Assembly (NCBI GenBank): GCA_019637395.1
Contig: JAHBVR010000007.1
Span: 186,001 to 250,000 of the forward strand
Reading direction: 5' to 3'
Length of the DNA stretch: 64,000 bases
Source of the DNA: Vulcanimicrobiota bacterium
Lineage (GTDB): Bacteria; Vulcanimicrobiota; Xenobia; Xenobiales; JADMJV01
The notes under the pieces were generated by a model, which made no database searches, was not told where the DNA came from, and saw nothing but the letters and a program-made list of their open reading frames with translations. Shown one piece after another: positions 11,655-17,991 of this stretch. Position 1 is the stretch's first letter. Each line of letters starts with the position of its first letter. The position numbers and the translations under genes are program-made.

Positions 11655-12641
11655 CTAAGGAAGATTCAAGAAGTTAGCCACAATGTGGCCCGAAGTATTG
11701 AACGTGCCTTGAGCCGTGCCCGGGGTTTCCGCGTTGGGCCCGACCAGGCTCACGTCGAAGTCGGCCTCTACCTGACTATCGGTCAACGAAGTAATGGTGA
11801 AGGTTCCGCTCGTCTCGGCGGTCTCCGCCCAGGCCGCGTTGACGGTGTTGCCGGAGGTGTCGCTGAGGCTCACCCCAAAGCCGCTATCGGTACCATTCTG
11901 AAGAATGTTATAGGTGCCGGTGGTAAGGGGGTTGCCACGAGTCACCACCAGGAAAGTCAGCGTGCGGAAGTCCCCCAGCGCAACGCCGGGCTGCGCCAGG
12001 CCGATAACCAGATGATTGTTATCGCTGCTACCCGTAGTCAACTCTCCGGTCACCGAAGGACTGGTCAGAGGCGGATTCACGCCATTGAAGCCATTGCCGG
12101 AAAACAAGAAGTTGCTCAGGGTGCCGCCCAAGATCGGCTTGGTGTTCTCGCCTGAGGGATTGCTATTGTTGTTGGGTGGGGTAGTGCCGGACTGAATCGA
12201 GCCGCTGAAAGTCTGACCATTAAGGGTTACCAGATAGGTTCCCAGCCCACCGTTCCGGGGCAACACACCGGTGATGGAGAAAGTGCCGAAGTCCGGCACG
12301 GTACCGGTCACGGTGAAAGCTCCCGTATTGGGGTCAACCGAGCCACTGATGCTATAACTACCGGTGGCCACGCTAAAAGTAGCCAGAGCGGCCACCACAG
12401 GGTTCGCCACCTGGAAGGTCCCACTGACCTTCCCATCGGCTGCCACCAGCATATTCAAGGTGCCTGTCTGACCGTTGCTCAAAACTCCACGACCGGCAAA
12501 GTTTCCGAGGAACTGGTTCACCTGAGCCTGAGAAAAGCCGCCATAATTGTTGCTGTCGCTTCCGCCGCAAGCAGCCGTGAAGAAGGCCAGGGAACTGAGC
12601 AGTACGGCCGTCCAGACGCGGCCGAGAGAGGAAGATTGCAT
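11655..12641 (-). CDS. Putative lipoprotein with beta-rich repeats
   Basis: The N-terminus has a lipoprotein signal peptide (hydrophobic stretch, then FFTAAC with lipidated Cys25 followed by GGSDS). The mature 300 residues are Gly/Thr/Ser/Asn-rich and beta-like, with repeating patterns such as GSYSISGSVDPNTGAFTVTG, a shape common in cell-surface lipoproteins. A low-complexity NNNSNPSGEN linker divides two similar halves (about 45-150 and 165-328). The start is supported by AGGAG 7 bases upstream of ATG at 12641. No enzymatic motif is seen and no function is assigned. Confidence 0.7.
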   Translation of the reverse strand: MQSSSLGRVWTAVLLSSLAFFTAACGGSDSNNYGGFSQAQVNQFLGNFAGRGVLSNGQTGTLNMLVAADGKVSGTFQVANPVVAALATFSVATGSYSISGSVDPNTGAFTVTGTVPDFGTFSITGVLPRNGGLGTYLVTLNGQTFSGSIQSGTTPPNNNSNPSGENTKPILGGTLSNFLFSGNGFNGVNPPLTSPSVTGELTTGSSDNNHLVIGLAQPGVALGDFRTLTFLVVTRGNPLTTGTYNILQNGTDSGFGVSLSDTSGNTVNAAWAETAETSGTFTITSLTDSQVEADFDVSLVGPNAETPGTAQGTFNTSGHIVANFLNLP

Positions 12642-12681: not shown

Positions 12682-13137
12682 TTAGACCGGGGTGGGTAAA
12701 GAGATTTTCAGGGTATCTTCGGGGGATTGCCGGCGCCACCACTCCTTCAGACCATAACGCAGGCTCAACAGATGCCGTTGCCAGGCAGGCCGGGGGACCA
12801 CGCTCTGGCGATAAGGGCGGCATTCGCAGACGGTGCGAATGGCCACGGCCACACCTCGTCGCGCCAGCCACAGGTTGAATTGATAGCCGTCCAGCAGAGG
12901 CGAGCCGCCGGCCGGGCGCTGATGCGTGGCCGCATACAGATCAAACCAGGGCTCGACCTGGCCTGCCAGCCGGGCCAGACCGGGCCAACTCGAAAGGGCC
13001 TCCCGGCGGCGTTTGCAGGCCAACCCCCGGCTGACGATACGCAAGCGCCGCGCCGGCATTCCCTCGGGATCCGGTCCGGCGGCTACCAGACAGCTCAAGA
13101 GTTGATACTGGCGCTCCAGAAGTTGCTCGCGATTCAT
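12682..13137 (-). CDS. Small MNIO-partner protein (SCO6045-like / possible leader-binding protein)
   Basis: This 151-residue cytoplasmic protein is helical and Arg-rich, with MNREQLLERQYQLLSCLVAAGP at the N-terminus, then RRLRIVSRGLACKRRREALSSWPGLARL and DLYAATHQRPAGGSPLLDGYQF. This layout resembles the small proteins encoded beside DUF692 enzymes in actinobacteria (the Streptomyces SCO6045 type), recalled from memory and not tested. Its ATG overlaps the MNIO stop by four bases (ATGA), so it should be made in proportion to the enzyme. In characterised MNIO pathways the partner protein binds the precursor leader; the same job is inferred here. Confidence 0.6.
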   Translation of the reverse strand: MNREQLLERQYQLLSCLVAAGPDPEGMPARRLRIVSRGLACKRRREALSSWPGLARLAGQVEPWFDLYAATHQRPAGGSPLLDGYQFNLWLARRGVAVAIRTVCECRPYRQSVVPRPAWQRHLLSLRYGLKEWWRRQSPEDTLKISLPTPV

Positions 13138-13970
13138 ACCGTCGCCTCCACCCGCCGGCGCTGTCCGCGCCGCACAGCTCCTTCAATTTTGGCCATTTCC
13201 TCAAGAAATTCTTGCTCGCCCGGGAAGTCGTCATCGCGCTCCAGCAACACCCCGGGTGGATCACAAAGCGCGCACAGCTCTTCCAGTAAATCGATCACCT
13301 CAGAGGGCAGGGGAGCGGCGTGGGTGTCGTGATAGATTCCGTCGTGCTCCACCCCTCCCCCGACGTGCACATAGCCGATCCGCTCCAGCGGAATTCGGCT
13401 TAGGAACTCCAGCGGGTCGCCGCCGTGGTTGCGGCTGTTGGCGTAAAGATTGGAGACATCCAGCAAAAGCCCGCAGCCCGAACGCTCGACCAGCAGCCGC
13501 AAAAACTCGGCCTCCTCCCAAGTCGGCTGCGGCCAGTCGACGATGGTGGCGATATTTTCCAGGTAAAGCGGGCGCGACAAAGCCTGCTGGGCCTGACGCA
13601 GGTTGTCCAGCACAATCTCCAGACTCTCGGGAGTGCGCTCCACCGGCAGCAGGTGGCCGCTTTCCAGTTCACGAGCACGCACGAAGGCCAGATGCTCCGA
13701 CACCAGCGGAGCATGGCAGCGGCGCGCCAGTGCTTCCATTTCGCGAAGGCGCTCGCGCGCCGGCGGCTCGGCTCCACCCAAGGATAAGGATAGCCCGTGG
13801 GGAACCGCCTGCACGCCGCGCTCCAGCAGATTGAGCACGGCTTGCGGCAGAGGTTTATGGCTGGGGAAATGCTCCACCATCAATTCCACAAAGCCCAGTT
13901 GCGGGTAGCGCTCGATCGAGAGCGCCAGTTGAGCGCGCCAGCTGACGCCAAGGCCCAGCCTCAAACTCAT
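13134..13970 (-). CDS. DUF692 / MNIO-family multinuclear iron oxidative enzyme
   Basis: A 278-residue TIM-barrel enzyme of the family that includes MbnB, TglH and BufB, which use two or three iron ions to oxidise peptide cysteines or other residues. All expected metal-site positions are visible: His58 (VPHGLSLSLGG), His93 (SEHLAF), Glu138 (LENIAT), Asp171 and Asn174 (LLLDVSNLYANS), His182, His202 (YVHVGGG), Asp215 and His217 (YHDTHA), Glu244 (LLERDDDFP). The frame extends upstream, but the ATG at 13970 overlaps the stop of the membrane protein gene (ATGA) and gives the family's usual N-terminus. The likely substrate is the Cys-rich tail of the preceding gene product. Confidence 0.9.
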   Translation of the reverse strand: MSLRLGLGVSWRAQLALSIERYPQLGFVELMVEHFPSHKPLPQAVLNLLERGVQAVPHGLSLSLGGAEPPARERLREMEALARRCHAPLVSEHLAFVRARELESGHLLPVERTPESLEIVLDNLRQAQQALSRPLYLENIATIVDWPQPTWEEAEFLRLLVERSGCGLLLDVSNLYANSRNHGGDPLEFLSRIPLERIGYVHVGGGVEHDGIYHDTHAAPLPSEVIDLLEELCALCDPPGVLLERDDDFPGEQEFLEEMAKIEGAVRRGQRRRVEATV

Positions 13971-14905
13971 CCGCCGCAACTCGAGAAGGAACTGCAACTG
14001 CTACCGCAACTGCTGGAAGAACTGCAACTGCTCGAGGAACTGCAACTACTGGAGGAACTGCAACTGGAAGACGAGCTGCTGCAGCTGAAGGAAGAACCGT
14101 GATCAACAGAACTGGAATAGGTCGGAGCCGGCAGCAGCGACAGCATCAGCGGCGCAGTGCCGAAAAGAGCCAACGCCAGGGCGGCGTCTTCGCTCTTGAG
14201 GGCGTCCGGGTTGGCCCGGGCCGTAGCGGCCAGAGCCGAGCGTTCGCGCACCATCTTTTCGAGATAGTCATCCGATTCGGCCGGGCGCTTGGGCAAGATG
14301 GAGAAAAAGTGCCAGAAGGCCAGGAACATGAACACTACTTCGGCCAGCAAGTACATGGCGGGTCGATTGTGAAGCAGGCCGATCCAGAAACGCGTCAATC
14401 CCATCACCGCCAGACAAAAGAGGGCCAGGGACGCACGCTTGCTGACCCGGCGAATCCGCTCCGGGGCAATGAGCCAGTTGCGGGCCTGCAGGTCGGCTTG
14501 CAGGGCGGCAATTTGACCTTGAACCGAGGGCGAGCACATCAGTTCAGGCAAGGTGACGCTCGGTTTGGCCTGACTGAGAATGACCTGCTCCAACGGATCC
14601 TCACTCTGGTAGCCGGCGATGGCGGTTAGAGGAGCGGGCCGAGTCTCATGATCGACCTGCAGGCCTCCTTTAGCCTCCAGTTGCAACACGGCGGTAGCCA
14701 GAGCGCGCCGGCCGCCGTCGCGGAGGTAGGCCAGTTCGTAGGGATTAAGTTCGCGGCGGGGGATTTCTTGGATGCCGCTCCGGCGTAACCCCTGGCGCAG
14801 GCCGTTGAGGTAGATTCCACAGGCGAGCATCAGGCCGGCGTAGACGAAGAGAAAAGTTGGACCTTGAATAAATTGGAGACTGATGAGATCGAAGAGAAAG
14901 CTCAA
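13967..14905 (-). CDS. TIGR04222-like membrane protein with Cys/Ser-repeat C-terminal tail
   Basis: The 312-residue protein begins with a membrane helix (about 13-34), has a cytoplasmic domain containing the ELNPYELAYLRDGGRRAL motif (51-69) typical of TIGR04222 membrane proteins, then two more membrane helices (about 158-178, 184-204). Residues 271-312 form a low-complexity tail of serines with seven cysteines at 275, 282, 288, 294, 300, 304 and 310, mostly spaced C-S5-C. Start is TTG at 14905 with GGAGG 8 bases upstream. It is the first gene of the MNIO operon; the tail is the probable substrate, making this a membrane-tethered modified peptide. The TIGR04222 match is from memory of the family pattern. 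Confidence 0.75.
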   Translation of the reverse strand: MSFLFDLISLQFIQGPTFLFVYAGLMLACGIYLNGLRQGLRRSGIQEIPRRELNPYELAYLRDGGRRALATAVLQLEAKGGLQVDHETRPAPLTAIAGYQSEDPLEQVILSQAKPSVTLPELMCSPSVQGQIAALQADLQARNWLIAPERIRRVSKRASLALFCLAVMGLTRFWIGLLHNRPAMYLLAEVVFMFLAFWHFFSILPKRPAESDDYLEKMVRERSALAATARANPDALKSEDAALALALFGTAPLMLSLLPAPTYSSSVDHGSSFSCSSSSSSCSSSSSCSSSSSCSSSSSCGSSCSSFSSCGG

Positions 14906-14918: not shown

Positions 14919-14960
14919 GATGATCGAGTTTACGGGGGCGGTTGGAGAGCTCTGGAAAGA

Positions 14961-14978
14961 TTTTGCGTATTTGCAAAA
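14961..14978. promoter_or_regulatory. Inverted repeat TTTTGC-N6-GCAAAA at the predicted transcription start
   Basis: TTTTGC (14961-14966) and GCAAAA (14973-14978) form a 6-bp perfect inverted repeat with a 6-base spacer covering the predicted transcription start of the MNIO operon. The same spacing as the CRP-like palindrome 30 bp away suggests a second operator for another dimeric regulator. It could also be chance in an AT-rich leader. Confidence 0.35.
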
Positions 14979-14980
14979 AA

Positions 14981-15009
14981 AGCATAGCAACTTGTGACCT
15001 TTTTCACAA
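14981..15009 (-). promoter_or_regulatory. Sigma-70-type promoter of the MNIO operon
   Basis: On the minus strand TTGTGA (complement of 15004-15009) and TATGCT (complement of 14981-14986) are separated by exactly 17 bases. A TG lies one base before the -10, making it an extended -10 promoter. Transcription would begin near 14974, leaving a leader of about 70 bases. The -35 half overlaps the CRP-like palindrome. Confidence 0.55.
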
Positions 15010-15010
15010 G
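14991..15010. promoter_or_regulatory. CRP-like palindrome TGTGA-N6-TCACA
   Basis: CTTGTGA (14991-14997) and TCACAAG (15004-15010) form a perfect 7-bp inverted repeat with a 6-base spacer, containing the exact CRP-family half-sites TGTGA and TCACA. It lies between two divergent genes and overlaps the -35 region of the MNIO operon promoter, so binding there would more likely repress that operon. The cognate regulator is not in the window. Confidence 0.55.
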
Positions 15011-15046
15011 AGGTCGAACAACTACTCCAGTGCGAAGGCCAGGGAA

Positions 15047-15817
15047 GTGCCGTCCTTGACCCCCACCGTAAAACTACGTTTTTTCCCGTGGGGCGAATGC
15101 GCCGCTCCCGGCCTTTTCCTGATGCGGGGAGGCGGCTGGAAGGTGATTCGCCAGCCGGTGCTGGTCGGCGTGCTCGAACATCCGCGGGCCGGCTGCTGGT
15201 TATTGGACACCGGGCTGCACCCGTACCTCGAAAAGGTGGACTGGAGCCTGCGTCTTTTTGTCCGCCTGTCTCGCATGCGAGTGCCCTCCGGCCTGCCTCC
15301 CACGCCCCGCCTGGACGGGGTCTTTCTCTCCCACTTTCACCTCGACCACGGCGCCGGCCTGACCGCGCTACGCCCGGAAATCCTGCTGACGTCGCGCGAA
15401 GGCTATGAATCCTCCCGCCTGGGCGGTCCTCTACACCTGGGCTGGAACCCGGCTCTCTGGCCCGCAGGCCAGTTGGAGCGAACCAGCTGGCTAGAGAATC
15501 TGCCGCGCCGCACCCAGGGGCCGGTGACCGGTTTTGACCTGTTTGACGACGGTTCGGTGCTGGCCGTCCCCCTGCCGGGGCACTGCCACGGGCAATACGG
15601 GCTGCTCTGCCAGACCGAGGCCGGACGGGTCTTTTTCGTAGCCGACGCGGTGGGTCACAGCTACGTGCTGACGCGGGGCTTGAAACAGCGGCTGCCCTCC
15701 CTGATCGCGGCCGACCGGGTGGCCGAAGCGCGCACGCAGAACTGGCTGCGCAACCTGATCCACTGGTGCTGGATGGTCCCCTCCCACTGCCCCCACGCCT
15801 ATCTGGCTCTGGGCTGA
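15047..15817 (+). CDS. Metallo-beta-lactamase-fold hydrolase
   Basis: The protein shows the metal-binding set of the MBL superfamily: SHFHLDHGAG (HxHxDH), the third-site histidine in LPGHCHGQYG, the bridging Asp in FVADAVG, and a late histidine in VPSHCPHAYL. This pattern fits the AHL-lactonase/Zn-hydrolase branch. The frame is open from 14942, but that would put the start inside the regulatory region, so GTG 15047 is chosen; TTG 15056 is equally possible. About 256 residues is normal. It is divergent from the MNIO operon and shares its control region. The substrate is unknown. Confidence 0.75.
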   Translation: MPSLTPTVKLRFFPWGECAAPGLFLMRGGGWKVIRQPVLVGVLEHPRAGCWLLDTGLHPYLEKVDWSLRLFVRLSRMRVPSGLPPTPRLDGVFLSHFHLDHGAGLTALRPEILLTSREGYESSRLGGPLHLGWNPALWPAGQLERTSWLENLPRRTQGPVTGFDLFDDGSVLAVPLPGHCHGQYGLLCQTEAGRVFFVADAVGHSYVLTRGLKQRLPSLIAADRVAEARTQNWLRNLIHWCWMVPSHCPHAYLALG

Positions 15818-15884: not shown

Positions 15885-16592
15885 ATGAGTCTGGCCCTCG
15901 CACTGCACATCCCGGACGGCTTTTTAGCGCCAAACTTCTGTGCGGCCGGATGGCTGCTGGCCGCGCCCGCTCTGGCCTGGGCCGCGCATGCCGGCGCGCA
16001 ATCTCCCGACCTGGAGCGCCGGGTCCCCACTATGGGAATGCTGGCCGCCTTCACTTTCGTGGCCCAATCCTTGCAGTTTCCCGTGCCCGGCGGCACCAGC
16101 GCCCACCTGCAAGGGTCCGCCCTGGTGGCTCTGGCCCTGGGTCCAGCCGCTTCGCTGCTGGTGCTGACGGTGGTCATCGCCATGCAGGCCCTGCTCTTTG
16201 GTGACGGCGGCCTGCTGGCCATGGGTTGGAACGTGGTGAACATGGCGCTGGTGGGCGCCATGGGCGCCTGCAGCCTGGGCTGGCTGGGACAAAAATTGCG
16301 TCTCCCCGCCTTTGCCTGGGCCTTCGTGGCGGCCTGGATCAGCATCGAGTTAAGCACCCTGGCCACCTGCCTGGAACTGGCCGCGGCCGGGGCCTCGCCG
16401 CTCAAGATTTCTCTGGCCGGCATGTTGCCCGCTCAAGGCCTGGTCGGCCTGGGCGAAGGCCTGGCTACGGCCGCGGCGCTGGGCATCTTGCGCCAACGCC
16501 GCCAGTGCAGCCCGCTGAGTTGGCGCGAAGCAGCTCCCGGCTGGCTGGTCATCGGCCTGCTGCTGGTGCTGTTGGCGGGCGGGCTGGTTTGA
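15885..16592 (+). CDS. Nickel/cobalt ECF transporter substrate-binding component (CbiM/NikM)
   Basis: A six- to seven-helix membrane protein with the N-terminal signature HIPDGFLAPN. In CbiM/NikM the N-terminal amine and His2 bind the metal. Here the first ATG gives seven extra residues (MSLALAL) before the histidine, while an in-frame CTG at 15903 would give exactly MHIPDGFL. MHIPDG is more like NikM than the MHIMEG of cobalt-type CbiM. Other family features are GMLAAFTFVAQSLQFPVPGGTSAHLQG and GDGGLLAMGWNVVNMA. It overlaps the next gene by four bases. A metal-uptake role is confident; Ni versus Co is not. Confidence 0.85.
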   Translation: MSLALALHIPDGFLAPNFCAAGWLLAAPALAWAAHAGAQSPDLERRVPTMGMLAAFTFVAQSLQFPVPGGTSAHLQGSALVALALGPAASLLVLTVVIAMQALLFGDGGLLAMGWNVVNMALVGAMGACSLGWLGQKLRLPAFAWAFVAAWISIELSTLATCLELAAAGASPLKISLAGMLPAQGLVGLGEGLATAAALGILRQRRQCSPLSWREAAPGWLVIGLLLVLLAGGLV

Positions 16593-17302
16593 AGCACCCC
16601 GGCCTGACTCTGGCCTTGACTTTCACCTATCTAATCTGGCTCGGCTGCTTGCCGGTAGGCCAGTGGGAGCGGTTGGCCGGCTTCGCGCTGTTGCTCTGGA
16701 TCGGCATGCTGGCGGCCGCACGCAACCCTCTACGCCTGGCCGCCCGGGCCCTGGGAGTGACGCCTTTTTCCGTGGCCGCGCTGCCGTTGATTTTCACCGT
16801 GCCGGGTCCGGCCTGGACCTATCTGGCCGGACATCCCCTCAGCCAGCCCGGTTGCGAGCGCTTCCTCACCATCCTGCTGCGCGCCTGGCTGGGCGCCCAG
16901 GCCGCCTGGCTGGCCGTCTCGCTGCTGGGGCGCCCGCGCCTGCTGCTGGCTTTGAGCCAATTGGGTCTGCCCCCTTTGCTGCTTTCCATCGTCACCCTGA
17001 TGATGCGCTACCTGGACGTGCTCCACGCGGAACTCATCCGCATGAACCGGGCCCGGCTGGCGCGTAGCGCCGGCGACCGTCCGCCCTCCTGGTGGTGGAG
17101 GGCCGTCAAAATCGGCCAGACGGCCGGCTGCCTGCTGGTGCGTTCCCTGGATCGAGGCGACCGCGTCTATCTGGCCATGAAAAGCCGCGGCTACGATGGC
17201 CGCGAACGCAGACTGAGCGCCCCGGCCCGCCCGAGTGCCCGGGAATGGCTGCTGCTGATGCTGGCGCAACTGGCCATGGCGATGCTGTGCCGGCCATGGT
17301 AA
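16589..17302 (+). CDS. ECF transporter membrane coupling component (CbiQ/NikQ)
   Basis: The frame is open from 16226, but those residues are a shadow of the preceding gene; TTG at 16589 overlaps its stop (TTGA) and begins a 237-residue protein with four or five membrane helices. The cytoplasmic coupling region has RMNRARLARS and YLAMKSRGYDGRERR, the AMxxRG(Y/F) signature of CbiQ-type T components that contact the ATPase. It transmits ATP-driven movement to the substrate-binding subunit. Its last codons overlap the ATPase start. Confidence 0.85.
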   Translation: MKHPGLTLALTFTYLIWLGCLPVGQWERLAGFALLLWIGMLAAARNPLRLAARALGVTPFSVAALPLIFTVPGPAWTYLAGHPLSQPGCERFLTILLRAWLGAQAAWLAVSLLGRPRLLLALSQLGLPPLLLSIVTLMMRYLDVLHAELIRMNRARLARSAGDRPPSWWWRAVKIGQTAGCLLVRSLDRGDRVYLAMKSRGYDGRERRLSAPARPSAREWLLLMLAQLAMAMLCRPW

Positions 17303-17991
17303 CCATCGAAGAGCTGTGTTTCTCCTATGGAAGCCGCGAAGTTCTGCGCCGGGTCGGCTTCACTGTGCAGCCCGGAGCCAAAGTGGGCCTGCTGGGGCCG
17401 AACGGCGCCGGAAAATCCAGTCTGCTGCTCCATCTCAACGGAATTCTGCAGGGGCGGGGCAACATCGTCATCGACGGTCTGGTCTTGAACGCGGCCAACC
17501 TGGGGCGAATCCGTCAAAAAGTCGGCCTGGTCTTTCAAGATCCGGACGATCAGCTATTTTGTCCCACCGTTTTTGAGGACGTGGCCTACGGACCGCTCTA
17601 CGCAGGGTTACCGGCGGTCGAGGTGGAGCAACGAGTGGAACGGGCGCTGGCGGCGGTGGGAATGCAGCAAGCCCGGGAGCGTTCCCCGCACCAGTTGAGC
17701 GGCGGAGAGAAAAGGCGGGTGGCTCTGGCCACCGTTCTCTCCATGCAACCCTCCCTGTTAGCCCTGGACGAGCCCACCAACGGGCTGGATCCGCGCGCCC
17801 GGCGCTCGCTCATCGAATTGCTGCGCCTATTACCCAATACCATGCTGGTGGCCACTCACGATCTGGCCATGCTGGAGGAACTGCTGCCGGAAGCCATCGT
17901 GATGAACGAGGGACGGATCGTCTACCAGGGAACCACGGCAGCTCTCCTGGCAGACAAAGAACTATTGGAACGTCACGGATTAACGGCCTGA
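17296..17991 (+). CDS. ECF transporter ATPase (CbiO/NikO)
   Basis: The frame extends upstream into the membrane component; the ATG at 17296, which overlaps its stop, is the natural start. The 231-residue ATPase has Walker A GPNGAGKSS, Q-loop VFQDPDDQLF (typical of ECF ATPases), signature LSGGEKRR, Walker B LLALDEPT, and H-loop ATHD. It drives metal uptake as a homodimer or with a second ATPase encoded elsewhere. Its 3' end overlaps the convergent NikL-like gene by 19 bp. Confidence 0.9.
   Translation: MVTIEELCFSYGSREVLRRVGFTVQPGAKVGLLGPNGAGKSSLLLHLNGILQGRGNIVIDGLVLNAANLGRIRQKVGLVFQDPDDQLFCPTVFEDVAYGPLYAGLPAVEVEQRVERALAAVGMQQARERSPHQLSGGEKRRVALATVLSMQPSLLALDEPTNGLDPRARRSLIELLRLLPNTMLVATHDLAMLEELLPEAIVMNEGRIVYQGTTAALLADKELLERHGLTA

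Follow-up and report, generated by a model that had tools for sequence, protein, structure and literature searches.

A three-gene MNIO cassette from Eremiobacterota with a Cys-tailed TIGR04222 membrane protein as the probable substrate

Three overlapping genes at positions 12682–14905 of the window, i.e. the whole 64,000-nucleotide stretch of DNA analysed here, probably constitute a substrate–enzyme–partner cassette. In this reading, to which we assign a probability of about 0.6, an MNIO iron enzyme would modify the cytosolic Ser/Cys tail of a TIGR04222 membrane protein in place, yielding a tethered metal-buffering or redox array. As judged from its sequence, the cassette appears real and functional, with the chemistry being a prediction. 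The arrangement and the substrate idea have already been published (Antoine et al., 2025; PMC12452194), and the locus in the window is a further case, in Eremiobacterota. A preliminary description of this DNA had reported three overlapping genes; all of them were found on the minus strand, with 4 bases shared at each junction. The features are as follows.

13967–14905, minus strand: TIGR04222 membrane protein, 312 aa (NCBIfam profile, AlphaFold2 model, hydropathy and charge)
13967–14104, minus strand: C-terminal Ser/Cys tail, the presumed modification target (sequence, tail comparison)
13134–13970, minus strand: MNIO (DUF692, PF05114) iron enzyme, 278 aa (PF05114 score of 265 bits, matches to solved MNIOs, ligand conservation)
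12682–13137, minus strand: helical MNIO partner (PME-type 2-like), 151 aa (homologues, fusions, AlphaFold2 model)

The membrane protein scores 105 bits against the curated NCBIfam cut-off of 43, which bears out its earlier description as TIGR04222-like. Its last 45 residues, DHGSSFSCSSSSSSCSSSSSCSSSSSCSSSSSCGSSCSSFSSCGG, contain 7 Cys and 30 Ser, matching the seven-cysteine, serine-filled tail reported before, and the rest of the protein has only 3 Cys. Relative to the local composition, the P values are about 4e-5 for Cys and 1e-22 for Ser. The tail Cys are mostly 6 residues apart, and the end is CGG. Five Ser codons, drawn from the AGY as well as the TCN family, occur in the Ser runs, which hence are not a fresh product of slippage. 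The tail is retained in two same-genus copies (L066 and L068); the same-genus TIGR04222 proteins are 64–84% identical and keep the tail design. Comparison of 76 MNIO-linked tails shows that 61 end in CGG, that the commonest Cys–Cys spacing is 6 residues, and that nearly every Cys has S or G before it and G or S after it. The window tail is built to the same pattern, with Ser replacing Gly. An open reading frame antisense to the tail (13797–14102, plus strand), with a Leu/Glu/Gln repeat (LEELQLLEELQ), was rejected as a mirror of the Ser/Cys codons and not a gene.

The MNIO matches PF05114 (MbnB_TglH_ChrH) with 265 bits over profile positions 2–260 of 263, the cut-off being 25, and also matches the solved MNIOs 3bww, 8hci, and 7tcr. 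Translation most likely begins at ATG 13970, which gives the 4-base overlap with the TIGR04222 stop; the listed start at TTG 13997 was read as an upstream extension. The enzyme had been credited with all metal ligands, and each position is indeed intact. Specifically, at least 67 of the 68 MNIOs in the alignment share each of H58, H93, E138, D171, N174, H202, D215, H217, and E244, residues that include the equivalents of HvfB N175, D242, and H244 in the alignment to 3bww (ligand roles taken from PMC13419390). The nearest named records are Candidatus Eremiobacterota MAGs, with 90–95% identity in the MNIO. In the MNIO tree, the window enzyme groups with Actinomycetota MNIOs, not with those of other Eremiobacterota (fork 94/96, drawn open), and therefore its origin by transfer or by an old duplication is possible. 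The TIGR04222-linked MNIOs form a clade separate from the genome's own bufferin-type MNIO, which is encoded with a DUF2063-like partner on another contig (G000 contig C4, L064:8236-9946). At two loci in the set (L036 and L041), a repetitive upstream open reading frame may represent a repeat precursor read out of frame.

The 151-aa partner has no match in Pfam or NCBIfam. Its gene starts within the MNIO stop codon with a 4-base overlap, and 54 of 63 partner genes likewise start at the MNIO stop codon, a sign of translational coupling. Of the 70 MNIO loci in the set, 65 have a partner homologue, and the three loci of bufferin type are among those that lack one (five in all); in four loci (L197–L200) the partner is fused to the C-terminus of the MNIO. 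The AlphaFold2 model of the partner is all-helical (pLDDT 77). Weak similarity to DUF2063 was seen in 6 of 51 partner homologues (best E 5e-4), and hhalign against DUF2063 profiles gave E values of 0.03–0.07, with a sensible core alignment only for the larger partner profile. Foldseek found no significant match for the partner model in the PDB, where the MNIO partner MbnC came at rank 26 with an E of 6.5, and a profile search of the partners against PDB sequences returned no match. The helicity and the weak DUF2063 likeness fit PME-type 2, short of proof. A full DUF2063 domain together with an RRE would probably not fit into the 151 aa of the window partner. In HvfBC, the active, mixed-valent state of the iron requires the partner (PMC13419390). 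In another Eremiobacterota family (L069, L070, and L074), the N-terminus of the partners is different and extended. Weak matches to Os1348/NHLP RiPP and LigA profiles came from single partners in the set, possibly these.

A search across genomes for DUF692 neighbours with TIGR04222 and Cys-rich tails had been proposed in the preliminary description, and its outcome speaks for the link. TIGR04222 loci were collected from Eremiobacterota and Actinomycetota with about 5 kb read on either side, giving 128 genes, and a protein was counted as Cys-tailed when its final 60 residues held two or more Cys. Such a tail is present in 62 of the 64 TIGR04222 genes lying no more than 200 bases from an MNIO, and in 12 of the 40 without an MNIO in the stretch read (Fisher P about 1e-13, with kinship ignored and the value inflated by relatedness among the loci). 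All 12 orphan Cys tails occur in MNIO-positive genomes. At the genome level, among genomes with a readable TIGR04222 tail, a Cys tail is found in 61 of 67 MNIO-positive and 0 of 7 MNIO-negative ones; the MNIO-negative genome G186, whose TIGR04222 gene is cut at a contig end, was left out of this count, in which kinship is again ignored. Genes 201–3000 bases from an MNIO, which lie in mixed arrays, have a Cys tail in 14 of 24 cases, and Cys-tailed and Cys-less genes thus occur together in tandem TIGR04222 arrays. Such mixed arrays, with two to four genes each, were seen at L150, L153, L163, L164, and L172, and might give rise to hetero-oligomers. The genome carrying the window (G000, 7.66 Mb) encodes a second TIGR04222 protein on contig C10 (L063:9121-9984). 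It has a 6-Cys tail, SSGGCGSSSSCGSSCGGGCGGGCGGCGG, with no MNIO within about 9 kb, is found in G138 too (L067), and is a candidate for modification in trans.

Weaker relatives, which resemble DUF2207 membrane proteins, serve as a control. DUF2207_C matches 5 of 14 TIGR04222 proteins (best E 5.8e-4), reflecting a remote similarity in the membrane/cytosolic part. The two kinds of protein share this part and a Ser/Gly tail; the DUF2207 proteins differ in having a large exported N-terminal domain with a signal peptide, and their tails, such as SSGGGGGGGGGGSW, have zero Cys. No MNIO was found in those of their genomes that were read. Therefore, the wider family as a whole has the flexible tail, while Cys tracks the enzyme. 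The link is not absolute, as three loci (L198–L200, Streptomyces-like by our reading) have an MNIO–partner fusion beside a Cys-less TIGR04222 protein, which has a His/Asp-rich end. Two of these genomes encode other TIGR04222 copies with one tail Cys, and a single tail Cys is also seen at L014. The MNIO tree places this fused group within the TIGR04222-linked clade and beside L197, where the neighbouring TIGR04222 protein has 7 tail Cys, so that loss of the tail Cys is the simpler account and the three loci look like a derived exception. The preliminary description had held that an MNIO retained without a Cys tail would undo the substrate assignment; this situation does occur at the three Streptomyces-like loci.

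These three loci would be explained if the tail were an unmodified, metallothionein-like metal binder and the MNIO acted on another residue or protein, and so would the orphan Cys-tailed copies far from an MNIO; MNIO enzymes elsewhere do act on non-Cys residues (PMC12452194). We nevertheless regard this as improbable, given that tail Cys follows the MNIO both by gene and by genome, down to every orphan, that relatives from genomes lacking an MNIO have the tail but no Cys, and that the Cys context is near-invariant, with S/G before and G/S after. That the tail is functionless low-complexity drift, produced by repeat slippage, is hardly credible in spite of how common Ser/Gly tails are across the wider DUF2207/TIGR04222 family, as the five Ser codons are mixed within the runs, the hexad Cys period and CGG terminus recur (61/76), and same-genus relatives preserve the design. 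On the comparative evidence, the Cys tail is probably the MNIO substrate, and the earlier proposal of an anchored Cys tail as the probable substrate is well supported by co-occurrence, gene overlap, and the controls.

Which side of the membrane the tail faces is the point on which we depart from the published model. Antoine et al. (2025) placed the tail in the periplasm from model predictions: the substrate–enzyme pair would be the same, but with four membrane helices and a tail modified before or during export. In the AlphaFold2 model of the window protein (mean pLDDT 69; Foldseek gave no match), TM1 (residues ca. 15–42) is followed by a mixed helix/strand domain (ca. 55–141), TM2 (ca. 148–178), TM3 (184–202), a short helix (238–248), and the disordered tail. 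On a hydrophobicity scale, three segments score as membrane helices. These score below 1.5 in 83–96% of 105 homologues, whereas the fourth segment, located before the tail, does so in only 10%, with a median of +3.9. It comes nearly TM-like in the window lineage, at a borderline +0.4 to +0.9, which favours the four-helix model, but in the AlphaFold2 model it is a helix of only 11 residues. The positive charges lie after TM1, before TM2, and after TM3, a positive-inside pattern that fits N-out/tail-in in 99 of the 105 sequences. Two DUF2207 relatives have, by eye, a clear Sec signal peptide at the N-terminus, and TM1 therefore runs out-to-in. The charge pattern, the weak fourth segment, and these signal peptides together favour a cytosolic tail. 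A periplasmic tail would accord with the bufferins, which have Sec signal peptides and function outside the cytoplasm, but by eye the MNIO and the partner lack an export signal. Given the substrate assignment, we consider the cytosolic tail probable on sequence and model grounds, by odds of rather more than two to one against the periplasm, and the published four-helix model as a whole unlikely, though of some weight.

The cassette is either there or missing as a block, as seen from the same-genus comparison. The genomes G000, G135, and G138 have all three genes; G136 and G137 of the same genus and G139 of the same family lack TIGR04222 and have only the other MNIO. In G136, the MBL and lipoprotein genes that flank the cassette directly adjoin each other, with the cassette missing in between. 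The lipoprotein gene (11655–12641) was rejected as a fourth member, since it is missing in L068 and present in G136 without the cassette. The conserved cassette includes neither a transporter nor a protease gene, in agreement with the absence noted earlier. Past the MBL-fold gene (14942–15817) and divergent from the cassette are the cobalt/nickel uptake genes CbiM, CbiQ, and CbiO (15885–17991). They were rejected as part of the system: they are common to same-genus relatives but not beside the MBL gene in G136, and are not among the recurrent cassette neighbours in other phyla. A search of recurrent neighbours for a functional hint yielded nothing beyond lineage-level synteny. At about 12 loci (L197 to L200 and related ones), the cassette is near a chlorite-dismutase-family protein (HemQ-like) and an FAD amine-oxidase-family protein (HemG/HemY-like), and at about 11 loci MsrB is nearby; these neighbours might hint at a redox or heme role, or might simply reflect synteny.

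In the mechanism we propose, three helices would anchor the TIGR04222 protein in the inner membrane with its N-terminus out, and a cytosolic domain and the flexible Ser/Cys tail would lie on the cytosolic membrane face. The small helical partner would activate and hold the MNIO, which would oxidise the regularly spaced [S/G]-Cys-[G/S] sites of the tail in place. The most likely products would be Cys-derived heterocycles of the 5-thiooxazole type, as formed on K-C-G by the bufferin/captophorin MNIOs. Captophorin K-C-G sites are converted to 5-thiooxazoles by an MNIO (PMC13097082), and the C-G/S sites of the tail resemble them by analogy. The outcome would be a series of soft ligands that stays uncleaved and tethered to the membrane, where it would buffer copper or a similar metal or provide redox protection, in line with the permanently anchored metal-binding or redox surface suggested before. 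On this analogy, a thiooxazole-type product together with metal buffering is plausible, at somewhat less than even odds. A more tentative extension is that the cytosolic tail is modified with neither cleavage of a leader nor export, giving an anchored heterocycle array in the cytosol, that orphan copies such as that on contig C10 are modified in trans, and that the cytosolic domain replaces an RRE in recognition; we consider this combination somewhat unlikely. A literature search found no experiment on any TIGR04222-linked MNIO.

TIGR04222 proteins make up 40% of the signal-peptide-less MNIO-associated candidates of Antoine et al. (2025), who drew attention to Cys in C-terminal Ser/Gly regions, suggested subsets of these proteins as MNIO substrates, and gave the name PME-type 2 to the short DUF2063-like partners. 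They further reported that over a quarter of TIGR04222 proteins lack a C-proximal Cys and that one third of TIGR04222 genomes lack an MNIO. The window locus, in which a TIGR04222 protein with a C-terminal Cys-rich tail is encoded beside an MNIO, agrees with their cluster definition, sharing the protein kinds, the gene order, the Cys tail, and a short, putatively DUF2063-like partner. Different from the window locus, the published clusters are mainly from Actinomycetota, and their tails are mostly Gly-rich, not Ser-rich (SSSSSC), and predicted to be periplasmic, whereas our evidence favours the cytosol. With the bufferins and captophorins (BufB, HvfB, and FonB, with DUF2063 PME-type 1 partners), the cassette has in common the MNIO ligands, repeated Cys-Gly sites, and a helical partner. 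Their substrates, however, are Sec-signal peptides and their partner has an RRE domain, while the window cassette has an integral membrane protein without a signal peptide and a short partner. An assignment of the cassette to this group, defined by a Sec precursor (DUF2282, Buf_6/12Cys, or EGKCG) and a DUF2063-RRE partner, was rejected in view of the TIGR04222 precursor, the short partner, and the different MNIO clade.

Co-occurrence puts the substrate assignment on considerably firmer ground than adjacency of the genes alone. As a compact unit that has seven Cys at regular intervals and lacks tailoring genes, the window cassette is a convenient test system. The characterised MNIO products in the literature consulted are peptides, and a permanent membrane-protein substrate, if true, would widen the scope of the MNIO family.
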